A DNA stretch of 42,889 bases from the NCBI GenBank assembly GCA_013042315.1, contig JABDQM010000074.1, positions 1 to 42,889 on the forward strand. Direction: 5' to 3'. Under the pieces are notes generated by a model. That model made no database searches. It worked only from the letters and a program-made list of their open reading frames with translations, and was not told the origin of the DNA. Below, piece after piece: positions 310 to 42,889 of the stretch. The first letter of the stretch is position 1, and every line of letters starts with the position of its first letter. Made by a program: the position numbers and the translations under genes. The DNA comes from Flavobacteriaceae bacterium. Lineage in GTDB: Bacteria; Bacteroidota; Bacteroidia; Flavobacteriales; Flavobacteriaceae.

Positions 310-1518
310 ATGACACATTTCGGAATCATCAGAGAGCGCAAGAATCCACCTGATATGCGGGTAGTATTGTCTCCACAAGCCTGCCAAAAGGTCCTGAATT
401 CGTTTCCTGAGGCACAAATAACCGTAGAGCCCTCGGCTGTTCGTGTTTTTAGGGATGAAGAATACGAATCGGCAGGAATTACAGTGGATGAGACCATGGA
501 AGATTGTGAAGTGCTTATTGGCGTAAAAGAGGTTCCAATCGAGGCCCTGATACCTGATAAAAAGTACTTCTTTTTCTCGCACACAATCAAAAAACAGCCC
601 TATAATCGGGATTTACTTCGGGCGATTTTATCGAAGAACATAGAATTGTACGACCATGAAGTAATCACAAATGCCAAGGGAATTCGTTTGGTAGCTTTTG
701 GTCGTTACGCGGGCATCGTAGGTGCATACAATGGTATTCGCACCTATGGGTTGAAATCTAATAAATTTAGCATAGCAAAGGCTGAAGTGCTAAAAGACAA
801 AAAAGACCTGATTCGGGAATTGCGCACAGTCACATTGCCTCCAATCAAAATATTACTGACAGGGAAGGGCAGGGTAGGTAATGGTGCTAAAGAAATCCTG
901 GATGGAATGAATCTCAGGGAAGTAAGTGTTGAGGATTACCTGCAAAAGACCTTTGAAGTTCCCGTCTATTGCCAAATTGATGTTCTCGATTACAACAAAC
1001 GAAAAGATGGACAACATCTGCCGATGCAAGATTTTTTTGACCATCCTGAAGCATATGAATCAAACTTTATGCGTTTTGCAACAGTGAGCGATCTGTATAT
1101 AGCCGGTCATTTCTATGGCGATGGTGCTCCATATCTATATACGAGGGAAGATGTTAAGGACTCTAATTTTAAGATTAAGGTGGTGGCAGATGTGAGCTGC
1201 GATATTGATGGGCCTGTGGCCACGACTTTGCGTGCCTCCACTATTTCTGATCCAGTCTATGGGTATGATCCGCTTACTGAGGAAGAAGTTCCATTCATGA
1301 ATGAAGATGCCATAGCGGTAATGGCAGTAGATAATTTACCGGCAGAATTACCCAGAGATGCGAGCGAAGGATTTGGTGATACCTTTGTGGATCACGTGAT
1401 CCCGGCCTTTTTTAATGATGATAAGGAGGGCATATTAGATCGGGCTAGAATGACCGCTAATGGCAAATTAACAGCCCGATACGCTTATCTGCAGGACTAC
1501 GTAGACGGAAAGGAGTAG
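310..1518 (+). CDS. NAD(P)-dependent oxidoreductase, saccharopine dehydrogenase / alanine dehydrogenase N-terminal-like
   Basis: 402-aa ORF. N-terminal 'FGIIRERKNPPDMRVVLSP' typical of AlaDH/PNT-N-like enzymes, nucleotide-binding 'ILLTGKGRVGNGAKEIL', and 'VVADVSCDIDGPVATTLRASTISDPVYGYDP' typical of saccharopine dehydrogenases. Confidence 0.85.
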   Translation: MTHFGIIRERKNPPDMRVVLSPQACQKVLNSFPEAQITVEPSAVRVFRDEEYESAGITVDETMEDCEVLIGVKEVPIEALIPDKKYFFFSHTIKKQPYNRDLLRAILSKNIELYDHEVITNAKGIRLVAFGRYAGIVGAYNGIRTYGLKSNKFSIAKAEVLKDKKDLIRELRTVTLPPIKILLTGKGRVGNGAKEILDGMNLREVSVEDYLQKTFEVPVYCQIDVLDYNKRKDGQHLPMQDFFDHPEAYESNFMRFATVSDLYIAGHFYGDGAPYLYTREDVKDSNFKIKVVADVSCDIDGPVATTLRASTISDPVYGYDPLTEEEVPFMNEDAIAVMAVDNLPAELPRDASEGFGDTFVDHVIPAFFNDDKEGILDRARMTANGKLTARYAYLQDYVDGKE

Positions 1519-1522
1519 TTTG

Positions 1523-2641
1523 TTATTCAACCTCAATGTCCCAATTCACCACCGGATGGGTTTTGGGAGCGGTGTAGGCACCCAGGGCTTTCAATTTTAA
1601 AACGAAAGAAGATACCTTTTCTAAGGTCTTAATTTTTAGGGTAAATACCTCCTTTGCCGGTATTTCAAAAACAGGTGAGCTACTGTAAAAATTATACTCC
1701 ATCTGATTTTCAAAAAACAAGTCGCTACTCGAAATATTTTCCAATTCAACCTCTAGAATATTTGTATTCGGCATATAAGCCACTTTATTTACCTTTAAAC
1801 TAGCCCTGATTAAAGGAGTTACAAATTGTGGTTTCCCAACCATCAAGCTATTGTACACTGCCATGGTGTTACCCATAAAAAGGGCTTCCTTTACACTTTC
1901 CAGGCTTCTGTTTTTAGCAAAAACCAATGTAATGGGCCTGTGGAACCCCTTTTCCAGATATTGCCAATCTATCAAACCATGAATATCGCTGGTACCCATT
2001 ATAGTGAGGTTGTGCTCCAATGCAATTGCAAATGATTCTTCGGCGTAGTCATATTCATTGATAACTTCTATGCCGTGTAATTCACCGTCTTTAATCCGAT
2101 CTAACTGGAAGTCGCTCAAAATGGGATTCCCTGTTGGACTCTGTCTGTACCAGGCCGGGTGATTCCAGAAGACAAAGGCATTCTGTTTTTTAGCTTCGGT
2201 AAAAGGTGCCAAAGAATCTTGAGCCAGTAGTAAATTAGCATCAGAGGTAAAGAGGGCATTACTATGACCAATAGGCGCATTTCGTGTGATCTCCGAGCCC
2301 GGTATAATCAGTAAGTCGTGATCCTCTGCTTCTTCAAGGGCCAATTGATAGGACCGGTTGCGATCGGGATGGGGGATATCTGCCTTATGTGGTTGGTATT
2401 CCAAGTGTTCTGTGAGGGAGATAACATCCAGGTTTTCGCGCAAGGCCTCCATTACTCGGATGGAAGGCCAGACCTCTCCGTCTGAAAAGACCGTGTGTTG
2501 GTGGAGGTCAGTTTTTAAAGTAATAAAGCCCGGGATATCCGGATAGGACAGGGCATGACCGGAAATATGCTGATGTTCCTGACCAAAGGCCAGAAAAATA
2601 GAATTCAGAATAAACAGCTGGACTAACACAAATTTTCTCAA
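1523..2641 (-). CDS. Secreted PHP-domain phosphodiesterase (Sb-PDE-like)
   Basis: 372-aa ORF with signal peptide. PHP metal motifs 'TDLHQHTVFSDGEVWP', 'LTEHLEY', 'IPGSEIT', 'FWNHPAW', 'GTSDIHG'. Confidence 0.85.
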   Translation of the reverse strand: MRKFVLVQLFILNSIFLAFGQEHQHISGHALSYPDIPGFITLKTDLHQHTVFSDGEVWPSIRVMEALRENLDVISLTEHLEYQPHKADIPHPDRNRSYQLALEEAEDHDLLIIPGSEITRNAPIGHSNALFTSDANLLLAQDSLAPFTEAKKQNAFVFWNHPAWYRQSPTGNPILSDFQLDRIKDGELHGIEVINEYDYAEESFAIALEHNLTIMGTSDIHGLIDWQYLEKGFHRPITLVFAKNRSLESVKEALFMGNTMAVYNSLMVGKPQFVTPLIRASLKVNKVAYMPNTNILEVELENISSSDLFFENQMEYNFYSSSPVFEIPAKEVFTLKIKTLEKVSSFVLKLKALGAYTAPKTHPVVNWDIEVE

Positions 2642-2845
2642 AGCTTTTCAATTTAAATCATCGTTTCAATTTAGCAATTTATAATCTAAGCTTGGGGTAA
2701 CTTAAGGTTTTAGTTTCCGACATGCGGTATGCCAACTTAGAAAGGCTGAGTAATGGGAAAAAACACCTGAAGAACTAAAAGTTAAAGTTGAAAGCTTTTT
2801 TAAAATTATACTTATATTGAAAGGCTAATGTAACCAACAGGCCTA

Positions 2846-3112
2846 GTGAAGTTTAATTGGATAATTGCTGACGATATGGATGACGAATTCAGAAAATTCT
2901 GTGTCGAGCTAGAGTATAAACTCAGGCCTCGTATTACTAAGTTTTTGATGTCGCGTTTTGATGAAGAATGTTGTGAAGACTTTTCTTGTTTTCATTTTGA
3001 CCTAGATCTCATTAATATGACTATCCGTATTTCGGAGAAAACCCCGCAGCACTATGTTCAAAGAATGTATTCTGATTTTGAACAGGAAATTAGCCAAAGC
3101 TGTTGTTCCTAA
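2846..3112 (+). CDS. Hypothetical acidic, Cys-rich small protein
   Basis: 88-aa ORF with GTG start, between annotated genes. Contains 'DEECCEDFSCFHF' and C-terminal 'SCCS'. No family recognised. Confidence 0.5.
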   Translation: MKFNWIIADDMDDEFRKFCVELEYKLRPRITKFLMSRFDEECCEDFSCFHFDLDLINMTIRISEKTPQHYVQRMYSDFEQEISQSCCS

Positions 3113-3126
3113 CTTTATTTTGAGAT

Positions 3127-3486
3127 TTGGACCCTGCCTCTGCGTACATTCTGGATCAGCCTGAACCCTACAGATCCATCTTATTGCACCTTCAATTTAT
3201 AATAGTCCAAACAATTCCTGAGGTCACCCTAAAATTTAAATTCAAGATCCCTTTCTACTATCTGGAGGGAAGACCTTTTTGTTACCTTAACCAATCCAAG
3301 AACTACGTAGATGTGGGCTTTTGGATGTCAGCGCATCTTTCGGTGCATCTGGAGCATATGACAACAACGGGCCGGAAAATGATGCGATCTCTGCGTTATA
3401 CATCGCTAAGCGACATTGATGAAAGCATTCTCAGGGATGTTCTTGAAAATGCCCGTCATGTAAAAAATCAAAAATTTTACAAATAG
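3127..3486 (+). CDS. DUF1801-type small protein
   Basis: 119-aa ORF (TTG start). 'YRSILLHLQFIIVQTIPEVTLKFKFKIPFYYLEGRPFCYLNQSKNYVDVGF' resembles DUF1801/YdhG-like proteins. Confidence 0.7.
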   Translation: MDPASAYILDQPEPYRSILLHLQFIIVQTIPEVTLKFKFKIPFYYLEGRPFCYLNQSKNYVDVGFWMSAHLSVHLEHMTTTGRKMMRSLRYTSLSDIDESILRDVLENARHVKNQKFYK

Positions 3487-3492
3487 GACTTA

Positions 3493-4317
3493 CTATAGAT
3501 TCATTTGATTTATCGTAGCCCTTAAAGTGGTTAACTGTTTCAAGAGCCCTTCTAACTTGTCTAAGGGCAGCATATTGGCCCCATCACTCTTGGCGATGGA
3601 AGGATCAAAATGAGTTTCCATAAACAGGCCGTCTACCCCTGCAGCAATTCCTGCCCTTGCCATAGTACCAATAAGTGCAGGTCTGCCCCCTGTTACACCA
3701 GAAGACTGATTGGGTTGCTGTAGGGAATGAGTCACATCTAAAACAACCGGGGCGTACTGTTTCATCGTGGGAACCCCCCTGAAATCAACGATCATATCCT
3801 GGTAGCCGAACATGGTTCCCCTGTCTGTAATGATCACCTGATCATTTCCCGAATCCGTCACTTTGGCAACAGCGTGTTTCATACTCTCCGGACTCATAAA
3901 TTGACCTTTTTTAAGGTTGACGGTCTTGCCCGTCTCGGCAGCGGCTATGACTAGATCCGTCTGGCGGACTAAAAAAGCAGGAATTTGTAATACATCGACA
4001 TATTCAGCGGCCATCTGTGCATCGGAAATTTCATGGATATCCGTAATGGTTGGTACGTGGAATGTTTCTGAGACTTTCCTCAGGATCTTTAAGGCCTTTT
4101 CATCTCCGATCCCCGTAAATGAATCGACCCTGCTCCTGTTGGCTTTTTTAAAACTACCCTTAAAGACATAAGGGATCTTTAATTTGTCAGTTACCTTCAC
4201 GATGTGTTCTGCAATACGCAGGGCCATTTCTTCCCCTTCTATAGCGCAAGGTCCGGAAAGCAGAAAGAAGTTATTACCATCGGTATATTTGATCTGAGGT
4301 ATAGCACTTAAATTCAT
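3493..4317 (-). CDS. kdsA: 3-deoxy-8-phosphooctulonate synthase
   Basis: 274 aa. 'LLSGPCAIEGEEMALRIAEHIV', 'FKGSFKKANRSRVDSFTGIG', 'VLDVTHSLQQPNQSSGVTGG', 'GLFMETHFDPSIAKSDGANMLPLDKLEGLL' are diagnostic of KdsA. Confidence 0.97.
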   Translation of the reverse strand: MNLSAIPQIKYTDGNNFFLLSGPCAIEGEEMALRIAEHIVKVTDKLKIPYVFKGSFKKANRSRVDSFTGIGDEKALKILRKVSETFHVPTITDIHEISDAQMAAEYVDVLQIPAFLVRQTDLVIAAAETGKTVNLKKGQFMSPESMKHAVAKVTDSGNDQVIITDRGTMFGYQDMIVDFRGVPTMKQYAPVVLDVTHSLQQPNQSSGVTGGRPALIGTMARAGIAAGVDGLFMETHFDPSIAKSDGANMLPLDKLEGLLKQLTTLRATINQMNL

Positions 4318-4332
4318 TTCTTAAATTTTACA

Positions 4333-4340
4333 CAAAGATA
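4333..4340 (-). promoter_or_regulatory. Bacteroidota -7-like element (TATCTTTG) upstream of kdsA
   Basis: Reverse complement of 4333-4340 (caaagata) is TATCTTTG, matching TAnnTTTG, 16 nt before the kdsA start. No clear -33 TTG seen. Confidence 0.4.
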
Positions 4341-4387
4341 GTATTAAACAGTTTTATCCTTTTTAGTTTTAATTAAGCGAACGGAAT

Positions 4388-4969
4388 ATGAGAATAAAAA
4401 ATAGACTTTTAATACTAGTATTCACTGCCACTTTTTTATCTGTACAATCACAACGAATTTCTGAACGAGGTAGTGGCCCTATTGTATTAGAAAAGCATCA
4501 GTTACGGTTCGATCTTTTAAGTCCGGGAATAAGTTATGAAATAGGTCTGTTCCGGAATCAGACGGTCTCTACGAGCTTAGGGTTGGCCACCGCCACTTAC
4601 GAGGAAGGATATGCCTTCGGCTTGGCGATGAATAACCGGTATCGGTACTACCATAATTTTAAACGACGTGAAGAGCTGGGAAAACGAATTTCCGGTAATT
4701 CCGGCAATTATATTGCTGCTGCCCAGGCCATTTTTTTCTCTCAATTACGCCTGGCAACAGATATTGAACCAGACGACTATAATTTGGGATTCTACGGTGT
4801 GGTATACGGAATTCAACGCACCTATGATAATGGTTTTAATATAAATGTGGAGCTCGGTGGGGGTTATTATCGGGGGGACGGAGCACCGTCCGGATACGGC
4901 CCTTTATTTAGCATCAATTTCGGTTGGGTGGCCACTAAGCGAAAATCGAGAAAACCCTCCTTTGATTAA
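4388..4969 (+). CDS. Hypothetical secreted / outer-membrane protein
   Basis: 193-aa ORF, N-terminal signal 'RLLILVFTATFLSVQSQ', alternating aromatic/glycine beta-strand-like C-terminus. Confidence 0.65.
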   Translation: MRIKNRLLILVFTATFLSVQSQRISERGSGPIVLEKHQLRFDLLSPGISYEIGLFRNQTVSTSLGLATATYEEGYAFGLAMNNRYRYYHNFKRREELGKRISGNSGNYIAAAQAIFFSQLRLATDIEPDDYNLGFYGVVYGIQRTYDNGFNINVELGGGYYRGDGAPSGYGPLFSINFGWVATKRKSRKPSFD

Positions 4970-4993: not shown

Positions 4994-5716
4994 TTAGAGC
5001 ATCAATTTCTTTATGGTTTCCATATAGCCCCGGCTCACTCTTACCACATCCCCATTGAGCATGGTTACATCGTAACTCTTCCCATATTTGTGTAGCTCTT
5101 TTACCATATTGAGGTTGATAATTGAAGAACGGTGGACTCTCACAAAGGTCTGCGGATTCAATTTTTCTTCTAATTCTGTAATTCCGTAATTACTGACGTA
5201 CTTTGTTTCCTGTGTATGTAGTTTAGAATAGTCGCCATAAGCTTCAACCCTGATTATATCCGTAACAGCAATAGTCACTAATTTTTTTTGGGACTTCACC
5301 AATACACGTTCCGGGTAGTCACCTTTTTCCATGATCAAACTTTCGGCAAGTGATCCCAGCTTAGGTTCACCTGATTTTAAGCGGTCAATAGCCATGCTAA
5401 ACCGTTCTTGGGTATAGGGCTTTAAAAGATAGTCGGCAGCATGCACCTCAAAGGCTTTTATCGCATATTGATCATAAGCGGTGGAGAAAATGATCTGTGG
5501 GATTTCTTCAAGAAAAGGCAATACCTCAAATCCTGTTTTCCCCGGCATTTGAACATCCAAAAAAACAAGATCAGGTTTAAACCGGTTAATCGCGGTAATG
5601 GCATCTACACCATTATTGACTTCGGCAATTAAAACCAGCTCCGGAAAGTTTTCTAAATACTCCCTAATCAGCTTACGTCCCGCTTCTTCATCGTCAGCAA
5701 TGATGACCTTTTTCAT
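4994..5716 (-). CDS. LytTR-family response regulator
   Basis: 240 aa. Receiver 'KKVIIADDEEAGRKLI', 'PDLVFLDVQMPGKTGFEVL', 'FSTAYDQYAIKAFEVHAADYLLKPY'; C-terminal LytTR 'FVRVHRSSIINLNMVKEL'. ATGA overlap with the upstream kinase gene. Confidence 0.95.
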   Translation of the reverse strand: MKKVIIADDEEAGRKLIREYLENFPELVLIAEVNNGVDAITAINRFKPDLVFLDVQMPGKTGFEVLPFLEEIPQIIFSTAYDQYAIKAFEVHAADYLLKPYTQERFSMAIDRLKSGEPKLGSLAESLIMEKGDYPERVLVKSQKKLVTIAVTDIIRVEAYGDYSKLHTQETKYVSNYGITELEEKLNPQTFVRVHRSSIINLNMVKELHKYGKSYDVTMLNGDVVRVSRGYMETIKKLML

Positions 5717-6777
5717 ATTGAGAATTTAACTTTTAATCCTCGTGGGGAATTGTCTAAGAGTTCTAACTGACTCTCATATAGTTTTTGCAAGCGAAGTTTT
5801 GTGTTGTTTAATCCGACGCCTTTTTCGAAAATAAATCGCTTGTCTTTAATCCCTACTCCGGTATCAGAAATTTCAAACTTAAGTTTTTCTCCTTCTTTAA
5901 AAATCGATATACTTATAATACCTCCTTCTATTAAACTCGATAGTCCGTGTTTTACAGAGTTTTCCACCAAAGGTTGCAATAACATCGGGGGTATGGGCTC
6001 TTCCATAAGATCCTCGGCGACATCTATATTGATCTCAAGACGATCTTCAAATCTTGCTTTCTCTAATTCCAGGTATTTTTTAACAAAGCTCAATTCTTCT
6101 TTCAAGGGTACTAATTCTTGTTGTGAGGCTTGCAATTGATAGCGGAACAAGTCTGAAAGGCGTGCGATCATCTCTCTTGTATTTTCATTTTCCGCAGGAA
6201 GTGAGGCGTTGATTGTATTGAAGATATTGTATAAAAAATGAGGGTTTAATTGGGCCTTAATCGCCGCTAATTCACTTTTTAAAGCTGCTTGCCTCAATTC
6301 GCCTTCTAAAATTAGTTTTCTTTTATTTTCCCTGTAGTGTTCGTAAGCGAACAGGATACCAAATTGGATAAAGAAAAACAGGCCCGGAATATAGAGATCC
6401 CAAATCATTCCTGTTCCCCGTAGTCTACCCCATTCCATGAGGTCACTTATGCTGTAGTGAATGGTTCTGATCAGATAGATTACAAAAGGAAGAAGTACTA
6501 AGAGTACAAGTATTCTTAAGAACAGTTCTTTCTTCTTTAAGATCCTGAAGATTAAAACCCAGAGTACAAAGGAACCCACCATAAACAAAGCGTATTGCAT
6601 CCCCGCCGAACGCCAGTAATCGGCAAGGTCGAAAATACCCAACCACCCCCTGTCCAAAAATGCTCCCTGATTAATGTAAAGGGCTAAATGATACAGAGCT
6701 GAAAAGGCAAAGTAAAAAAGAAAGGCGGCCAGAATTTCTACAGCCTTAATATTCCAGAAAAGATATTTATTCAACAT
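5713..6777 (-). CDS. LytS-type sensor histidine kinase
   Basis: 354 aa. Multiple N-terminal TM segments, 'LKAQLNPHFLYNIFNTINA'-type His_kinase motif, HATPase 'PPMLLQPLVENSVKHGL', 'FEISDTGVGI'. Confidence 0.93.
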   Translation of the reverse strand: MLNKYLFWNIKAVEILAAFLFYFAFSALYHLALYINQGAFLDRGWLGIFDLADYWRSAGMQYALFMVGSFVLWVLIFRILKKKELFLRILVLLVLLPFVIYLIRTIHYSISDLMEWGRLRGTGMIWDLYIPGLFFFIQFGILFAYEHYRENKRKLILEGELRQAALKSELAAIKAQLNPHFLYNIFNTINASLPAENENTREMIARLSDLFRYQLQASQQELVPLKEELSFVKKYLELEKARFEDRLEINIDVAEDLMEEPIPPMLLQPLVENSVKHGLSSLIEGGIISISIFKEGEKLKFEISDTGVGIKDKRFIFEKGVGLNNTKLRLQKLYESQLELLDNSPRGLKVKFSI

Positions 6778-6962
6778 ACTATAATATTGTTAATTCCAAG
6801 GTAAGCAGATCACAGGGTTAAAAAAAATCGATTTCGTTGAACTGTCCTATACAGAGTTAGATGGTCCTTTCCATTAAACTGCCTATAGGGCGGTTCGTCA
6901 GGTTGTACTTTCTACATGGACAGAGATACAGGATATTTGATCATCTTTTAAAATCGCTTATT

Positions 6963-9362
6963 ATGAGATTATTCTTTTTTATTCTACTATTCCTGACTTC
7001 CTTGGTTCAGTATGGCCAGACGATTAGCGGCCGAGTACAATCTCAAGACAAAGAAGTCCTTCCTTTTGCGGCAGTTACCTTAAATCGCGTACAGGATTCG
7101 AGCCTTGTAAAAGCAGTCATCACAAATGAAGATGGAACTTTTGTCATCAGAAACATTCCCGGAAGTGAGTATTTACTGAACATCTCAAATATTGGTTATC
7201 TAGACTATCAGCAGACCATCTTGTTTGATGGTAGCTCTTTGGATTTGGGAACCCTGGTCCTGGAGTTTAGTGCTGAAAATCTCGATGAGGTTACGGTTGT
7301 AGCCGAAAAGCCAATGGTTCAGGTTTTGGCAGACAAAACGGTCTTTAACGTTCAAAATACCATCAATGCCACGGGGACAAGTGCTTTTGAACTCTTGCGA
7401 AAAGCCCCTGGGGTTATTGTCGATAATAACGGCGGAATTATTGTAGAAGGTAAGGCCGGAGTGCAAATCTTTATCGATAACAAGATATCTCTTCTTCAAG
7501 GCGAAGATCTCATTAATTATCTCGAGAGTTTGCAGGCTACGGATATTGAAGCCATAGAAATCATTACTCAGCCTTCATCTAAATACGATGCAGCCGGGAA
7601 TGCGGGGATCATTAACATTAAACTGGTCAAAGACAAAAGCCTGGGGACCAACGGAACCGTAACCGGTGGTATGACAGTCGGGGATTTTGGCCGGTATAAT
7701 TCAAGTATGAATTTTAATTCGAGGGGAAAGAAAGGAAATTTTTACGGTACTTACAGCAATCGATTTGGGAAGAGCACCAACTTCCTTAATTTGTTGAGAG
7801 AACAATCGGGAACCAGCTTCGGAGCACGAACAAACAGCATATACGATCAGAATAGCAATAATGTAAAGCTGGGTTACGACTTCTATGCCACTAAAAAGAG
7901 TACGTTCGGCGCTATTTTTGATGGCAATTTCAACAACAGCTATGGGATCAATAATTCAAGAACACCCATCCGGGCTGTTGGGGCCATACAAAATGATAGC
8001 GTTTTAATCGCCAATAACCGAACTTCCAATTTGTCTTACAATGTCAACGGAAACCTCAATTACCGCTACGCCGATACGCTTGGAGTAAGCCTAAATGTAG
8101 ATCTCGACTATGGAAAATACAACAGCGACAGAAATGCCTTTCAACCCAATGTCTATTTCAACGGAAATGAAACACAGGTCATCCGGGAATTGATCACGAG
8201 ACAGGAGACTCCCATAGATATTGACATTGTGACCTTTAAAACAGACTATGAGCAAAACCTGCTAAACGGTGTCCTGGCTCTGGGCTTTAAATTATCCTAT
8301 ATCAAAACCAATAACACCTTTAACTTTTTCAATATCGTGAATGGACAAGATATATTTGATACTACGCAGAGTAATCAATTTGACTATGAAGAAAGGATCA
8401 ATGCAGCGTATTTTAATTACAATAAAAAATGGAACAAATGGAATCTGCAACTGGGCCTGAGAATGGAGAATACCATCTCTGATGGGAATCTTGAAAGTGC
8501 GCAGGTGAATCAGGATTCACGGGTGAAAAGAAATTATACCAACTTTTTTCCCTCGGGTGGTGTAACTTATCAGGCTTCGCCGAAAAATCAGTTTGCTCTT
8601 ACGTATAGCAAGCGAATCCAACGACCTAATTACGCCTCTTTAAACCCTTTTGAGTTTAAAATTGACGAACTGAGCAGCAGATTGGGAAATCCCTTTCTAC
8701 AGCCGCAGTACACGGATAATTTAAAACTATCGCATACGTATAATTACAGGTTAACCACCTCAATAAGTTATAGTTATATTTCTGATTTTTTTGCTCAGGT
8801 AACGGTTGCCGACGGGCCGAGCCGTAATTTTCTAACCACTTTAAACGTGGCCGATCAGGAGATTGTCAACTTTGGGGTATCGTACCCTAAGAATATCAAA
8901 GACTGGTGGAATGTCTATTTTAGTCTCAACGCCTACGTCAGCAATTACAAAGCTAACAGTCCGGAATTTTTACCGGTAAAACAGGAAACACTTAGTTTTT
9001 ACATACAGAATACCTTTTCCCTCCCAAAAGGACTGCGTATGGAGGTTTCCGGCTGGTACAGCTCCCCTTCTGTATGGGGAGGAACTTATCAAACTGCCTC
9101 TCTGGGTTCATTAAATCTGGCCTTTCAAAAGAAATTCTTTCAGGAGAGGCTCACCGGAAGACTTTCTTTTAATGATATCCTCTATACCATTCCGTGGAGA
9201 GGTACTACTCAATTTGGAGATCTTTTTATCGACGGAAGCGGAGGAAGCGACAGTCGGCAAGTAGCATTTAGCCTTACCTATGATTTTGGCAGAAAGGAAA
9301 TTAAGAAGGCTCGCTCCAGGAAGACCGGCCTTGAAGATGAGAAGGGACGTATCCAGGATTAA
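6963..9362 (+). CDS. Outer-membrane beta-barrel / TonB-dependent receptor-like protein (carboxypeptidase-regulatory-like + OMP_b-brl type)
   Basis: ORF track starts at 6861, but an ATG at 6963 gives a signal peptide 'MRLFFFILLFLTSLVQYGQ'. Contains 'ISGRVQSQDKEVLPFAAVTLNR', 'DEVTVVAEKPMVQ', plug-like 'AFELLRKAPGVIVDNNGGIIVEGKAGVQIFIDNK', C-terminal beta-barrel. Confidence 0.88.
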   Translation: MRLFFFILLFLTSLVQYGQTISGRVQSQDKEVLPFAAVTLNRVQDSSLVKAVITNEDGTFVIRNIPGSEYLLNISNIGYLDYQQTILFDGSSLDLGTLVLEFSAENLDEVTVVAEKPMVQVLADKTVFNVQNTINATGTSAFELLRKAPGVIVDNNGGIIVEGKAGVQIFIDNKISLLQGEDLINYLESLQATDIEAIEIITQPSSKYDAAGNAGIINIKLVKDKSLGTNGTVTGGMTVGDFGRYNSSMNFNSRGKKGNFYGTYSNRFGKSTNFLNLLREQSGTSFGARTNSIYDQNSNNVKLGYDFYATKKSTFGAIFDGNFNNSYGINNSRTPIRAVGAIQNDSVLIANNRTSNLSYNVNGNLNYRYADTLGVSLNVDLDYGKYNSDRNAFQPNVYFNGNETQVIRELITRQETPIDIDIVTFKTDYEQNLLNGVLALGFKLSYIKTNNTFNFFNIVNGQDIFDTTQSNQFDYEERINAAYFNYNKKWNKWNLQLGLRMENTISDGNLESAQVNQDSRVKRNYTNFFPSGGVTYQASPKNQFALTYSKRIQRPNYASLNPFEFKIDELSSRLGNPFLQPQYTDNLKLSHTYNYRLTTSISYSYISDFFAQVTVADGPSRNFLTTLNVADQEIVNFGVSYPKNIKDWWNVYFSLNAYVSNYKANSPEFLPVKQETLSFYIQNTFSLPKGLRMEVSGWYSSPSVWGGTYQTASLGSLNLAFQKKFFQERLTGRLSFNDILYTIPWRGTTQFGDLFIDGSGGSDSRQVAFSLTYDFGRKEIKKARSRKTGLEDEKGRIQD

Positions 9363-38380: not shown

Positions 38381-38400
38381 TAATGAAAATAACAAGTAAA

Positions 38401-38429
38401 AAAAGCCGCTTTATAAGCGGTTTTTTTTT
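38401..38429. terminator. Intrinsic terminator between secDF and the convergent minus-strand cluster
   Basis: A-run, CCGCTT-TAT-AAGCGG hairpin (38406-38420), then TTTTTTTTT; symmetrical enough to act on both strands. Confidence 0.8.
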
Positions 38430-38433
38430 GCTT

Positions 38434-38811
38434 TTAAGCCAGGAGCCATTTTTTGGCCGTTCGCTTTTTATCAAATAATTTCATTTCGTAACCGTACTGT
38501 ATCATGGCAGATTCGATAAACATAAATCGAAGGTATCTATCTTCGTCTTCCACAACCAGGGCTAGTTTATAGCTGCGATCCCATCCCAATTTACCGGCAT
38601 TTTCAACGAGATTAAAAGAAGTATCTATTTGGTAAACTCCTTCAAAGTGGGAAATTGCCAAGACTTTTTTGCGTTTCTCTTTCCTGCAAAGGTCGAGGAT
38701 TTTGGACCATCGTTGCAGGGATTCTGCCTTTTCCACTGAAGGCAGGATAGTTCCGTACATGGTGATCTCAATGTATTCCGGATGGACGGTATGTTCTATT
38801 CTATTGGGCAT
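38434..38811 (-). CDS. SpoIIAA/STAS-like hypothetical protein, paralog A
   Basis: ORF track gives 130 aa from 38826. The internal ATG at 38811 (MPNRIEHTVHPEYIEITMYGTI...) overlaps the upstream stop as TGATG. C-terminal 'FIESAMIQYGYEMKLFDKKRTAKKWLL' is SpoIIAA-like. Confidence 0.8.
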   Translation of the reverse strand: MPNRIEHTVHPEYIEITMYGTILPSVEKAESLQRWSKILDLCRKEKRKKVLAISHFEGVYQIDTSFNLVENAGKLGWDRSYKLALVVEDEDRYLRFMFIESAMIQYGYEMKLFDKKRTAKKWLLA

Positions 38812-39188
38812 CAGTCGAACAACCATTTTTTAGCCTCTCTCTTGCTCAGGAAGAGCTTCATTTCATACCCCAGATTGTTCATCACGGTTTCGGTGAAAGA
38901 GAGGTGCTGGTATTGTGCTTCAGTTTTAACCACAACGGACAATTTATAATCGGGTTGCCATCCAAAGTTGGAGGCTGTATCTACCAAATTGAATTTTGAA
39001 CTGGTGGAATGCTTTCCTTCCAGATCGATAAAACCTAAAATAAGATTTCGATTTGTAGTCCTGCATAGTTCAGCTACTCTAGACCAGCGTTCCATAGCTT
39101 CCTTTAATTCTTCCCCGGGAACTATGCTTCCTTTGATGTGAACTTCAAGGTATTTAGGCAGAACCCGGTGGTCTAGGGTATAGGGCAT
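38811..39188 (-). CDS. SpoIIAA/STAS-like hypothetical protein, paralog B
   Basis: 125 aa. 'MPYTLDHRVLPKYLEVHIKGSIVPGEEL...RWSRVAELCR...FNLVDTASNFGW..DYKLSVVV...GYEMKLFLSKREAKKWLF' aligns by eye along its whole length with paralog A. Confidence 0.82.
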   Translation of the reverse strand: MPYTLDHRVLPKYLEVHIKGSIVPGEELKEAMERWSRVAELCRTTNRNLILGFIDLEGKHSTSSKFNLVDTASNFGWQPDYKLSVVVKTEAQYQHLSFTETVMNNLGYEMKLFLSKREAKKWLFD

Positions 39189-39226
39189 ATTTGAACGAAA
39201 TTTCTTTAAAATAGGAAAATAAGAGA

Positions 39227-40471
39227 TTACGTCAAAATATTCCCAATTGAACCCTTTTTTGTAGGAACCAATTCCAGGATGGATGTGGGTTTTAAATCGG
39301 GCTCTATTCTATGTGAAACAAAAACTATAGCCGTATTGCTTTCGCTTCCAAGTTTGTTGACGAGATGTACCACCAATTTTGCAGCCCTGTCGTCCAGGTC
39401 GGCTGTTGGTTCGTCAAGAATGAGCAATAGCGGTTGTTTAATCATCGCCCTGGCACACATTACCAGCCTTTGACGACCTTTGCTTAATTCATGAAAATAT
39501 AAATCCTTATGTTTCTCTAAACCGAGCAGGCTAAGCCAGGCTTTTGCCAGGCTTTTCTGCTGTTCCGTGGGGCGGGTGTAAAGTCCGATAGAATCTACCA
39601 GCCCTGAGATCAGCATATGTTCCAGGGTATGGTATCCCCTGAAACTGTCCGTAAGGGCCGGGGTGATGTATCCTATGTGTTTCTTGATATCCCAAACACT
39701 TTCGCCGCTGCCTTTTTTCTGGCCGAAGAGCAAAATGTCTTGTCCATAGGCCTTTGGGCTGTCTCCGGTGATTAAAGATAAAAGTGTGGTCTTTCCACTG
39801 CCATTGGCTCCCCTTAATTCCCAAAAATCTCCCACGCCTATCTTCCATGAGATGTTTTGTAGTACAGGCTTGTCTCCAAAAGCGACAGAAACATTTTTTA
39901 GTTCCACAAGAGCATGATGAAAAGATGTATGTTTTTGTGGTGACTCAGGAAAGTTGCCCCGAAAATATGTTTTCTCCTCATTGTGATTTTCACTGTTCTC
40001 TGGAATTTCTGAAATTATCTCAAGATTCTGGCCCTCCCATAATGCATACTTTTCTATAAAGGGTAGCAAGTCGGATTTACGACTTAGGATTTGTATAATA
40101 ATGGTTGATTCTTGTAGCTCCTTGATTTTTTTAAGCAATTCATTTCGCGCCGACGGATCGAGATTATCAAAAGGATTGTTGAGAATGATAAAGTCGGGTT
40201 CTTCAGATAAGATATAAGAAAACAGTGCTTTTTTACGCTCTCCGCTAGACATGGATTGAAGGCTCTGAGCGTGATTCCGGGTAAGGATCTTCCGATCGTG
40301 TCTGCGCTCTTCCTCCATCCACTTTTGAATTTCAGAAGTTGAGAAGAGGGCTCCTTTTTTCCGCCGAAGAAATTTAAAATTCTCAGGTAGGGGCCCGTTA
40401 AGCAGCTGATCTATCAGGCCACTTAGCGGGATAGAATTTTCCGTAAATATTGCCCAATTTTGCGGTTTCAT
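39227..40471 (-). CDS. Two-domain soluble ABC ATPase (ModF/PhrA-like); N-terminal half degenerate, C-terminal half intact
   Basis: 414 aa. C-half: Walker A 'GANGSGKTT', 'LSKGRQRLVMCARAMIKQPLLLILDEPTADLD', 'FVSHR'. N-half: 'MSSGERKKALFSYILSEEPDFIILNNPFDNLD' but no GxxxxGKS/T. Confidence 0.9.
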   Translation of the reverse strand: MKPQNWAIFTENSIPLSGLIDQLLNGPLPENFKFLRRKKGALFSTSEIQKWMEEERRHDRKILTRNHAQSLQSMSSGERKKALFSYILSEEPDFIILNNPFDNLDPSARNELLKKIKELQESTIIIQILSRKSDLLPFIEKYALWEGQNLEIISEIPENSENHNEEKTYFRGNFPESPQKHTSFHHALVELKNVSVAFGDKPVLQNISWKIGVGDFWELRGANGSGKTTLLSLITGDSPKAYGQDILLFGQKKGSGESVWDIKKHIGYITPALTDSFRGYHTLEHMLISGLVDSIGLYTRPTEQQKSLAKAWLSLLGLEKHKDLYFHELSKGRQRLVMCARAMIKQPLLLILDEPTADLDDRAAKLVVHLVNKLGSESNTAIVFVSHRIEPDLKPTSILELVPTKKGSIGNILT

Positions 40472-40503: not shown

Positions 40504-40511
40504 CAAATATA
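40504..40511 (-). promoter_or_regulatory. Bacteroidota -7-like element (TATATTTG) upstream of the ABC ATPase cluster
   Basis: Reverse complement of 40504-40511 (caaatata) is TATATTTG, 32 nt before the ABC gene start. No clear -33 seen. Confidence 0.4.
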
Positions 40512-40575: not shown

Positions 40576-42889
40576 CTAAAAATCAACTCTGATAACGACG
40601 TTAGGAGTAAGGCCCAATGAGTTTTGGGAAAAGGCGTTGACCTCGCCCATTGAGTCAGGCCTGAAAAATTGGCTAACGCTATTTTCCCGATTTAAAATGT
40701 TCCAGATTGAGAACCCGATCTGCGCCTTGGTGTTGGGCCCATTACATAGTGCATAAAGGGTAGACAGATCAACGCGCATATAATCGGTAAATCGAGTGGA
40801 GTTGCTGGCTTGAAAATTTACGGTATTGTTGATGACCGGTTCTTGGCTATCCGGCAAAGTAGTGGGCTTACCTGTTCTCCAGTTCCATCCGGTTGCCAGA
40901 CGGAGACGGCTGGTTTCGTATGTCAAACCCAGGGTTAGAGCGTGAGTAATATCATAATTGCTCGGGAACTCCTGTTCTGGGAGAGTTTGAAAGTAATAGT
41001 CAGCATTCAAGTGAGAATAACCTAGCCAGGCGGTCAGATGGTTTAGCTGTTTTCGTACTAAAAGATCCAGGCCTTTCGCGGTGTACCTGCCAATGGCGTT
41101 GGTGAATTCGTATTGGTTTTGGAATCCTTGACTCTGAGTGGTGATCCCTTCAACTTCTTTATAGAAACCCACTGCCTTGATCAACCAGCCCGACCTATTA
41201 AAACTTAGGCCCACTGATCCCTGTTTGCTGGTGATCACGGGAATGTCTTCATCGTCAGACAATTGCCAGCGACGTTTTTCGATACCCAAAAAATCGTTTT
41301 GGAAATTGACTACCTGAGAAGTGTTCTGGTGTTTGAATTCTCCCAGAAGTTCTACATTGAACCCGTTTCCTATCCTTTGATTGAAGCTCAGGCGTGGTTC
41401 AAGCAAATGACGCCGAAACTTATCCAGGTAATTATAACGCAGTCCGATTCTTGCAACGGATGCCCGGTTCTCTGAGGAATATGCCAGAGCTGTGAATCCG
41501 CTGTGAACTCTCAGGACATTTCCTTCTAGGCGTCTGAAAACCGGATCATCCACGTCATCAAGATTGGTAACCTTTGTTTCCGTGAACATGTAACCTAAAG
41601 ACCACTGTAGCCTGTTATTAAAACGAAGGTTGGTATTTAGCCGTGCTGCGGTCTCAGACACTTTATTTTCCTGTAAAAAACGTTGGTCGTTAAAGATGTT
41701 AGCGTTGATCGCTTGTAGCTTGTAATCGGTATTGTAGACTTGTAATTCACTATCTATCTTGTCATTCCACTGGCGCTTGTAATTGAGTCCGGCTGCCAAA
41801 GTACCTTGTTCAAGGCTACTTTCTCTGGTTTCCGTGTCATTGCTGATCACCGCATTTTCGTTAAAAATGAGCTCGTTATTGGCGTAGATAAAGTTAAGGC
41901 GGAGATGATCGGAATCTGAAATCTTCCAAAGCCACCTTATAGAGGTATCATAAAAGTCGAAACTCTTATCCGAATTTACTACGTCCGCCTCATTGTTCTC
42001 CACCTCTGTGTCTTGAGATATTCGCGAAAAGTATTCGGTATAGGTGGGACTCTCAACAAAGTCGTTGATCGCTTTTCTGGCGGCGATCTGAAGGGAGGAG
42101 CGCTCTCCCAGGGGAGTATCGACAAACCCACTTACATCGATAAAGTTAGCACTTAAAGAACCCGAAAAATCTTGGTTAAGTCGATCTTCTGTTTCCATGG
42201 AAATCGTACCTGAAACCCCATCTGTAAGATAGGTGGGAGAACCGTTAGTCCGGAGCGATACATTCTGGGTAATCATGGGATTGAACATGGAGATCAGACC
42301 AAAAAAATGACCTGATTGATACATTTTAATGTCATCCCAAAGGATAAGGTTCTGATCATTACTACCTCCCCGAATATTGATATCCGAAACGGTTTCATTC
42401 ACGCTTTGTATGCCCGGAAAGGCTTGCACGGCCTGCAGTACATCCGTATCTATGAGTCCGGGCAAAATACTGAACCGGTTGAAATCGATACTGTAGGAAC
42501 CGTCGTCAAGTTGGTCAATACCCCGGATCAGGTAGTCATATACGACGATTTCCGGGAGTTTGAGTTGCTGGGGCCGCAGGGCGATATCAATACATGCTCC
42601 GGGCTTAAAATTCCCTGGCTGTCCTACAAAACTGCTGTACCCTATAAAGCGAACAGAGATTTGTTCCTTAACTCCTTTGATTTCCAATTCAAAATAGCCC
42701 TTTTCATCGGTGATGACTGCTTGCGTTTTGGATTGTACAGTGGCAAAAGGAAGAGGATTCTTAGTAGTCTCATCGATGATGGTTCCGCAAAGGATTCGAT
42801 TCAAGGGACGTATTGCAATGAAATTGTTGGGTAATTCGGAGAATTGCAGGCCCGTCTCCCTGGATACATAATTGAGAATCTCTTTTATT
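40576..42889 (-). CDS. TonB-dependent receptor with carboxypeptidase-regulatory-like domain and probable STN domain; 5' end outside window
   Basis: 'RILCGTIIDETTKNPLPFATVQSKTQAVITDEKGYFEL', plug 'VLQAVQAFPGIQSVNETVSDINIRGGSNDQNLILWDDIKMYQSGHFFGLISMFNP', barrel to 'NVVIRVDF'. The reading frame stays open upstream of 42804 to the window end (IKEILNYVSRETGLQFSELPNNFIAIRPLNRILCG...). Confidence 0.92.
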   Translation of the reverse strand, partial: IKEILNYVSRETGLQFSELPNNFIAIRPLNRILCGTIIDETTKNPLPFATVQSKTQAVITDEKGYFELEIKGVKEQISVRFIGYSSFVGQPGNFKPGACIDIALRPQQLKLPEIVVYDYLIRGIDQLDDGSYSIDFNRFSILPGLIDTDVLQAVQAFPGIQSVNETVSDINIRGGSNDQNLILWDDIKMYQSGHFFGLISMFNPMITQNVSLRTNGSPTYLTDGVSGTISMETEDRLNQDFSGSLSANFIDVSGFVDTPLGERSSLQIAARKAINDFVESPTYTEYFSRISQDTEVENNEADVVNSDKSFDFYDTSIRWLWKISDSDHLRLNFIYANNELIFNENAVISNDTETRESSLEQGTLAAGLNYKRQWNDKIDSELQVYNTDYKLQAINANIFNDQRFLQENKVSETAARLNTNLRFNNRLQWSLGYMFTETKVTNLDDVDDPVFRRLEGNVLRVHSGFTALAYSSENRASVARIGLRYNYLDKFRRHLLEPRLSFNQRIGNGFNVELLGEFKHQNTSQVVNFQNDFLGIEKRRWQLSDDEDIPVITSKQGSVGLSFNRSGWLIKAVGFYKEVEGITTQSQGFQNQYEFTNAIGRYTAKGLDLLVRKQLNHLTAWLGYSHLNADYYFQTLPEQEFPSNYDITHALTLGLTYETSRLRLATGWNWRTGKPTTLPDSQEPVINNTVNFQASNSTRFTDYMRVDLSTLYALCNGPNTKAQIGFSIWNILNRENSVSQFFRPDSMGEVNAFSQNSLGLTPNVVIRVDF

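Follow-up and report, generated by a model that had tools for sequence, protein, structure and literature searches.

The window, by which we mean the whole stretch of 42,889 nucleotides analysed, comes from the genome of a Muriicola-like member of the Flavobacteriaceae. Three genes lie close together on its minus strand, with a likely promoter element upstream and a terminator downstream:

40504..40511, minus strand: TATATTTG, likely Bacteroidota -7 promoter element, its position conserved in 6 other loci of the genus
39227..40471, minus strand: ABC gene, 414 aa, soluble asymmetric ABC ATPase of a ModF-like subfamily
39959..40471, minus strand: degenerate N-terminal half of the ABC protein (~residues 1-171), no Walker A
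39230..39913, minus strand: complete C-terminal nucleotide-binding domain of the ABC protein (~residues 187-414)
38811..39188, minus strand: protein B gene, 125 aa, STAS/SpoIIAA fold
38434..38811, minus strand: protein A gene, 125 aa, paralogue of B with a presumed STAS/SpoIIAA fold
38398..38428, both strands: bidirectional intrinsic terminator (terminator-like hairpin) between gene A and the convergent secDF

The original prediction was correct for the three open reading frames and their positions, for the TGATG junction, and for the terminator and the TATATTTG element; no permease lies beside the genes in the window. The ABC and B genes are separated by 38 nt, while the stop codon of B and the start codon of A overlap by one base (TGATG, 38813-38809), an arrangement also found in the Muriicola locus L088. 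A search of the ABC/B and B/A junctions for terminator-like sites found none. The TATATTTG 8-mer by itself is common (6 occurrences in the window against 2.4 expected). However, its position upstream of the ABC gene is kept in six other loci of the genus as TAT[AC]TTTG, despite otherwise dissimilar intergenic DNA, which makes it a credible promoter and likely a Bacteroidota -7 element. Compared with the nearest relative, dN/dS was ~0.11 for the ABC gene, ~0.21 for B and ~0.05 for A, indicating that all three genes are under purifying selection. In Muriicola (L085, L086, L087, L088 and L089, about 490-4640) the operon follows a co-oriented cassette of an ECF sigma factor, FecR and a TonB-dependent receptor; of this cassette the window retains just the receptor (40576-42804), after which the contig ends. 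Elsewhere in the family the genes upstream of the ABC gene are lgt, DUF192 and GNAT.

The ABC protein matches PF00005 (E = 7.9e-27), and its AlphaFold model has a pLDDT of 80.2. Its C-terminal half carries the motifs of a complete nucleotide-binding domain: Walker A (GANGSGKT), signature (ELSKGRQ), Walker B with the catalytic Glu (LLLILDEP) and the H-loop His (VSHR). All of these were present in the C-terminal half of 41/41 homologues surveyed, with the Walker A, Walker B, Glu and His invariant. The N-terminal half retains a signature, SMSSGERKK (residues 73-81), whose S-x-G-E core is near-invariant among the 41 homologues. In its Walker B (IILNNPF) both the Asp and the catalytic Glu are replaced by Asn; Asn occupies the Glu position in 39 of the homologues, and none of the 41 has an N-terminal Walker A. 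The original prediction of a twin-ABC ATPase was therefore half right: the C-terminal half is a complete ATPase, but the N-terminal half is degenerate and not a working one. Given the geometry of ABC dimers, an intact C-terminal half and an N-terminal half keeping only its signature, we predict that a single composite ATP site remains, formed by the C-terminal Walker A, Walker B, Glu and His together with the N-terminal signature.

All 41 homologues checked share this short form of about 410 aa. It occurred in about 29% of the sampled Flavobacteriaceae genera (44 of 151 genomes matched, one of them with a 524-aa form), and outside this family in one genome of another. In other families of the class, relatives mostly measure 470-540 aa and the majority have an N-terminal Walker A; full-length ModF-like proteins outside the Flavobacteriaceae run to about 490-510 aa. 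Among the full-length ModF-like relatives from other families of the Bacteroidia (L096-L113), some also carry LDNPF or MDNPF, with Asn already at the position of the N-terminal catalytic Glu. From these motifs, the Glu was probably lost before the Walker A. In one draft genome of 320 contigs (G037) the ABC gene (L040, 160-1408) is split into two overlapping frames, by a frameshift or an assembly error.

The best family match of the ABC protein was ModF (NF008186; E = 3.5e-85), the two-domain soluble protein of enterobacteria, with which it is colinear from profile position 132 and shares a permease-less two-domain architecture. The match covers profile positions 132-464 only, not the full length, and scores 286 bits, well below the curated cut-off of 459 bits. 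In contrast to ModF, which requires two domains bearing a Walker A, the protein lacks about 80-100 residues that would hold the first one. The gene is also not part of a mod operon: no mod genes adjoin it, and modB is missing both from the draft genome of the window and from several other ABC carriers. A role in molybdate transport was rejected on these grounds, modB being patchy and no mod genes lying nearby. To our knowledge, no function has been established for soluble ModF-like ABC proteins, which are widespread.

Proteins A and B are 43% identical to each other. B had no Pfam match, and A matched only the SpoIIAA-like family PF11964 (DUF3478) with E = 0.05, below the cut-off; of 21 members of the small-protein family, 8 matched PF11964, with a best E of 8e-4 that is still below the gathering cut-off. 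Profile-profile comparison of the family with two SpoIIAA-like members of PF11964 was not significant, and neither was any sequence homology to solved STAS structures. An AlphaFold model of B built from 12 sequences (pLDDT 88.7, pTM 0.81) has the strand and helix order of a STAS/SpoIIAA domain, and its top Foldseek matches were SpoIIAA, RsfB and 2q3l (DUF3478), at modest TM-scores of about 0.56-0.64. On the strength of this model we accept the STAS/SpoIIAA fold for B, which agrees with the original prediction; the identity between the two proteins suggests the same fold for A.

Residues invariant across the 21 members include F113, A119, W122 and L123, which correspond to the conserved cluster Phe114, Ala120, Trp123 and Leu124 of Shewanella SpoIIAA-like proteins (PMC2954212). 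The family thus resembles the SpoIIAA-like proteins (2q3l, 2ook) in fold, in its length of about 125 aa and in this C-terminal cluster, but differs from them in its sub-threshold Pfam scores and in forming tandem arrays beside an ABC gene. Because the model and the cluster support the fold while the Pfam scores fall below the cut-off, we call it a divergent STAS family outside the Pfam definition. It is nearly confined to the Flavobacteriaceae; only weak, unlinked relatives were found elsewhere in the phylum. A phosphorylation switch like that at SpoIIAA Ser58 was also considered. By eye the equivalent position is 64, which holds Ser or Thr in most of the Muriicola copies; elsewhere the residue is Ala, Gly, Asp, Asn, Val, Leu, Met or Tyr, and such a switch was rejected as a family-wide property. 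Plasmid and phage records contained no match to the STAS gene, and its origin from a mobile element or phage was likewise rejected.

Linkage of the ABC and STAS genes in relatives, on which the predicted gene group depended, was borne out in 16 genomes of six lineages, where one to three STAS copies lie directly downstream of the ABC gene on the same strand. The carriers are eight genomes of the window genus, G032, G260, G037, G107, G307 (three copies), G127 and two Robiginitalea; the linked Robiginitalea copy, a divergent one, came to light only when the ABC loci were read with a wider profile. Within the genus the ABC-STAS spacing is mostly 37-45 nt, and B is present in all eight genomes where the locus was found. 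Protein A is missing from G402, G357, G184 and G403, four Muriicola species with B only. In a 400-genome sample of the family, the STAS family (E up to 1e-8) occurred in 10 genomes of 6 genera, and all ten carry the ABC gene. The same holds for each STAS-carrying genome that was checked, among them Robiginitalea and G193 with their unlinked copies. No ABC-STAS gene fusion was seen.

The association is looser in other respects. Within the same clade, 16 ABC loci have no STAS gene between the ABC gene and its downstream neighbour; many closely related loci thus have an empty gap, so the ATPase works without STAS. G193 has its ABC gene at the syntenic locus and its only STAS copy elsewhere. In Robiginitalea and G193 (L090 and L091, about 5450-7240; L052) a B-like STAS gene sits away from the ABC gene, between genes that by eye we would name DUF4442-like and AIM24-like. 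G107 and G307 (L045, L062) have an additional divergent, unlinked STAS paralogue. Between its ABC gene and its intact STAS gene, G032 has a decayed STAS pseudogene interrupted by several stops (L012, about 2850-3250; G032:C1:657790-657939), a loss in progress.

On the ABC tree, STAS carriers are interspersed among non-carriers with modest support, a pattern compatible with an ancestral gain followed by repeated losses or with more than one gain. In the STAS tree the tandem duplications are lineage-specific and arose in separate lineages. The order ABC-(STAS)-secDF is syntenic in most carriers, and since the ABC gene and secDF adjoin with or without STAS, the linkage is partly inherited synteny. 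The ABC sequences of STAS carriers and non-carriers showed no differences by region, a weak argument against a complex that is tight and obligate; an apparent N-terminal clustering of carrier-specific residues vanished when each lineage was reduced to one or two rows and was discarded.

A STAS-fold protein encoded together with an ABC ATPase recalls MlaB and MlaF, and MlaF chains were among the structural matches of the ABC model. The C-terminal extension of MlaF clamps MlaB (PMC7367683), whereas the ABC proteins checked here have no such extension, with 28-37 residues between the SHR motif of the H-loop and the C-terminus. The STAS model of B has five strands and a C-terminal helix, a longer topology of the SpoIIAA type, in contrast to the four strands of MlaB. 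No MlaE/MlaD-type permease or MCE gene was found in the neighbourhood, either in the window or in the named relatives, and STAS is optional here, unlike in MlaF-MlaB. The missing extension and the longer STAS topology leave an MlaFB-like interface unsupported. MlaB-MlaF is still the functional precedent, although three of its defining features (MlaE/MlaD, C-terminal extension and STAS topology) fail in this system.

Our best reading, held with middling confidence, is that the operon encodes an ABC switch that is soluble, has one ATP site and lacks a permease, together with a STAS-type protein serving it as an accessory regulator or adaptor. The ATPase would be a cytosolic ModF-like protein whose decayed N-terminal half contributes nothing but its signature motif to one composite ATP site. 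As the conserved motifs suggest, ATP binding would clamp the two halves together and hydrolysis would release them. Gene order points to the co-transcribed STAS/SpoIIAA-fold proteins most likely docking on the ATPase, where they may act as MlaB does on MlaF without belonging to an Mla system. Support for a partnership comes from the adjacency of the ABC and STAS genes on one strand, their short spacing, the overlap of A and B, and the presence of the ABC gene alongside STAS in every case checked; the separation of the two in G193 counts against it. With 16 ABC loci having no STAS gene in the gap and four Muriicola species having B only, the partnership is plausible but optional.

The main rival, which we consider possible but rather doubtful, holds that the ATPase is not what the STAS proteins act on. 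Instead they would function with small ligands or at lipid surfaces, in the manner of the Shewanella SpoIIAA-like proteins that resemble CRAL-TRIO, and would lie next to the ABC gene only through an inherited ancestral insertion between it and secDF. This would suit the match to 2q3l among the closest folds, the F113/A119/W122/L123 cluster shared with the Shewanella proteins (PMC2954212), the persistence of the ABC-secDF neighbourhood with or without STAS, and the by-eye DUF4442-like and AIM24-like neighbours of the unlinked copies in Robiginitalea and G193. It accounts less well for Muriicola, where the linkage persists although the upstream neighbours were replaced, for the short, terminator-free spacing of ABC and STAS on the same strand, and for the constant presence of the ABC gene where STAS is found. 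The original prediction had gone further than a partnership and suggested that A and B might each bind one half of the ATPase. Two paralogues and two halves do coincide in the window, but B stands alone in four sister species, other lineages have one to three copies or none, and the N-terminal half is an incomplete ABC domain; we regard this pairing as highly improbable. An unlikely alternative is that the ABC protein acts on ribosomes or nucleic acids in the manner of soluble ABC-F proteins, with the STAS proteins providing a link to stress signalling. The lack of a permease, a match to the ABC-F family NF000355 (E = 2.4e-33) and the presence of ABC-F proteins among the structural matches of the ABC model would agree with such a function, but the interdomain linker ABC_tran_Xtn was not among the Pfam matches and ModF matches far better.

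Returning to a single-site switch with an accessory STAS protein, the gene group is real and conserved, and as an ABC-STAS pair it is apparently undescribed. A literature search on ModF and on STAS-ABC operons found nothing relevant. The 2020 study of the MlaFB structure reported that its authors had found no further pair of STAS and ABC proteins in the PDB (PMC7367683). More tentatively, this single-site ABC protein, one half of which lacks Walker A, could together with the expandable STAS array that would tune it form a second STAS-ABC regulatory partnership, one that evolved outside transport. If true, this permease-free pair would show that ABC ATPases are under STAS control more generally. 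As a natural half-dead ABC pair with one ATP site, the ABC protein is itself useful for asking what the second site is for, and its STAS-bearing and STAS-free relatives provide natural controls.
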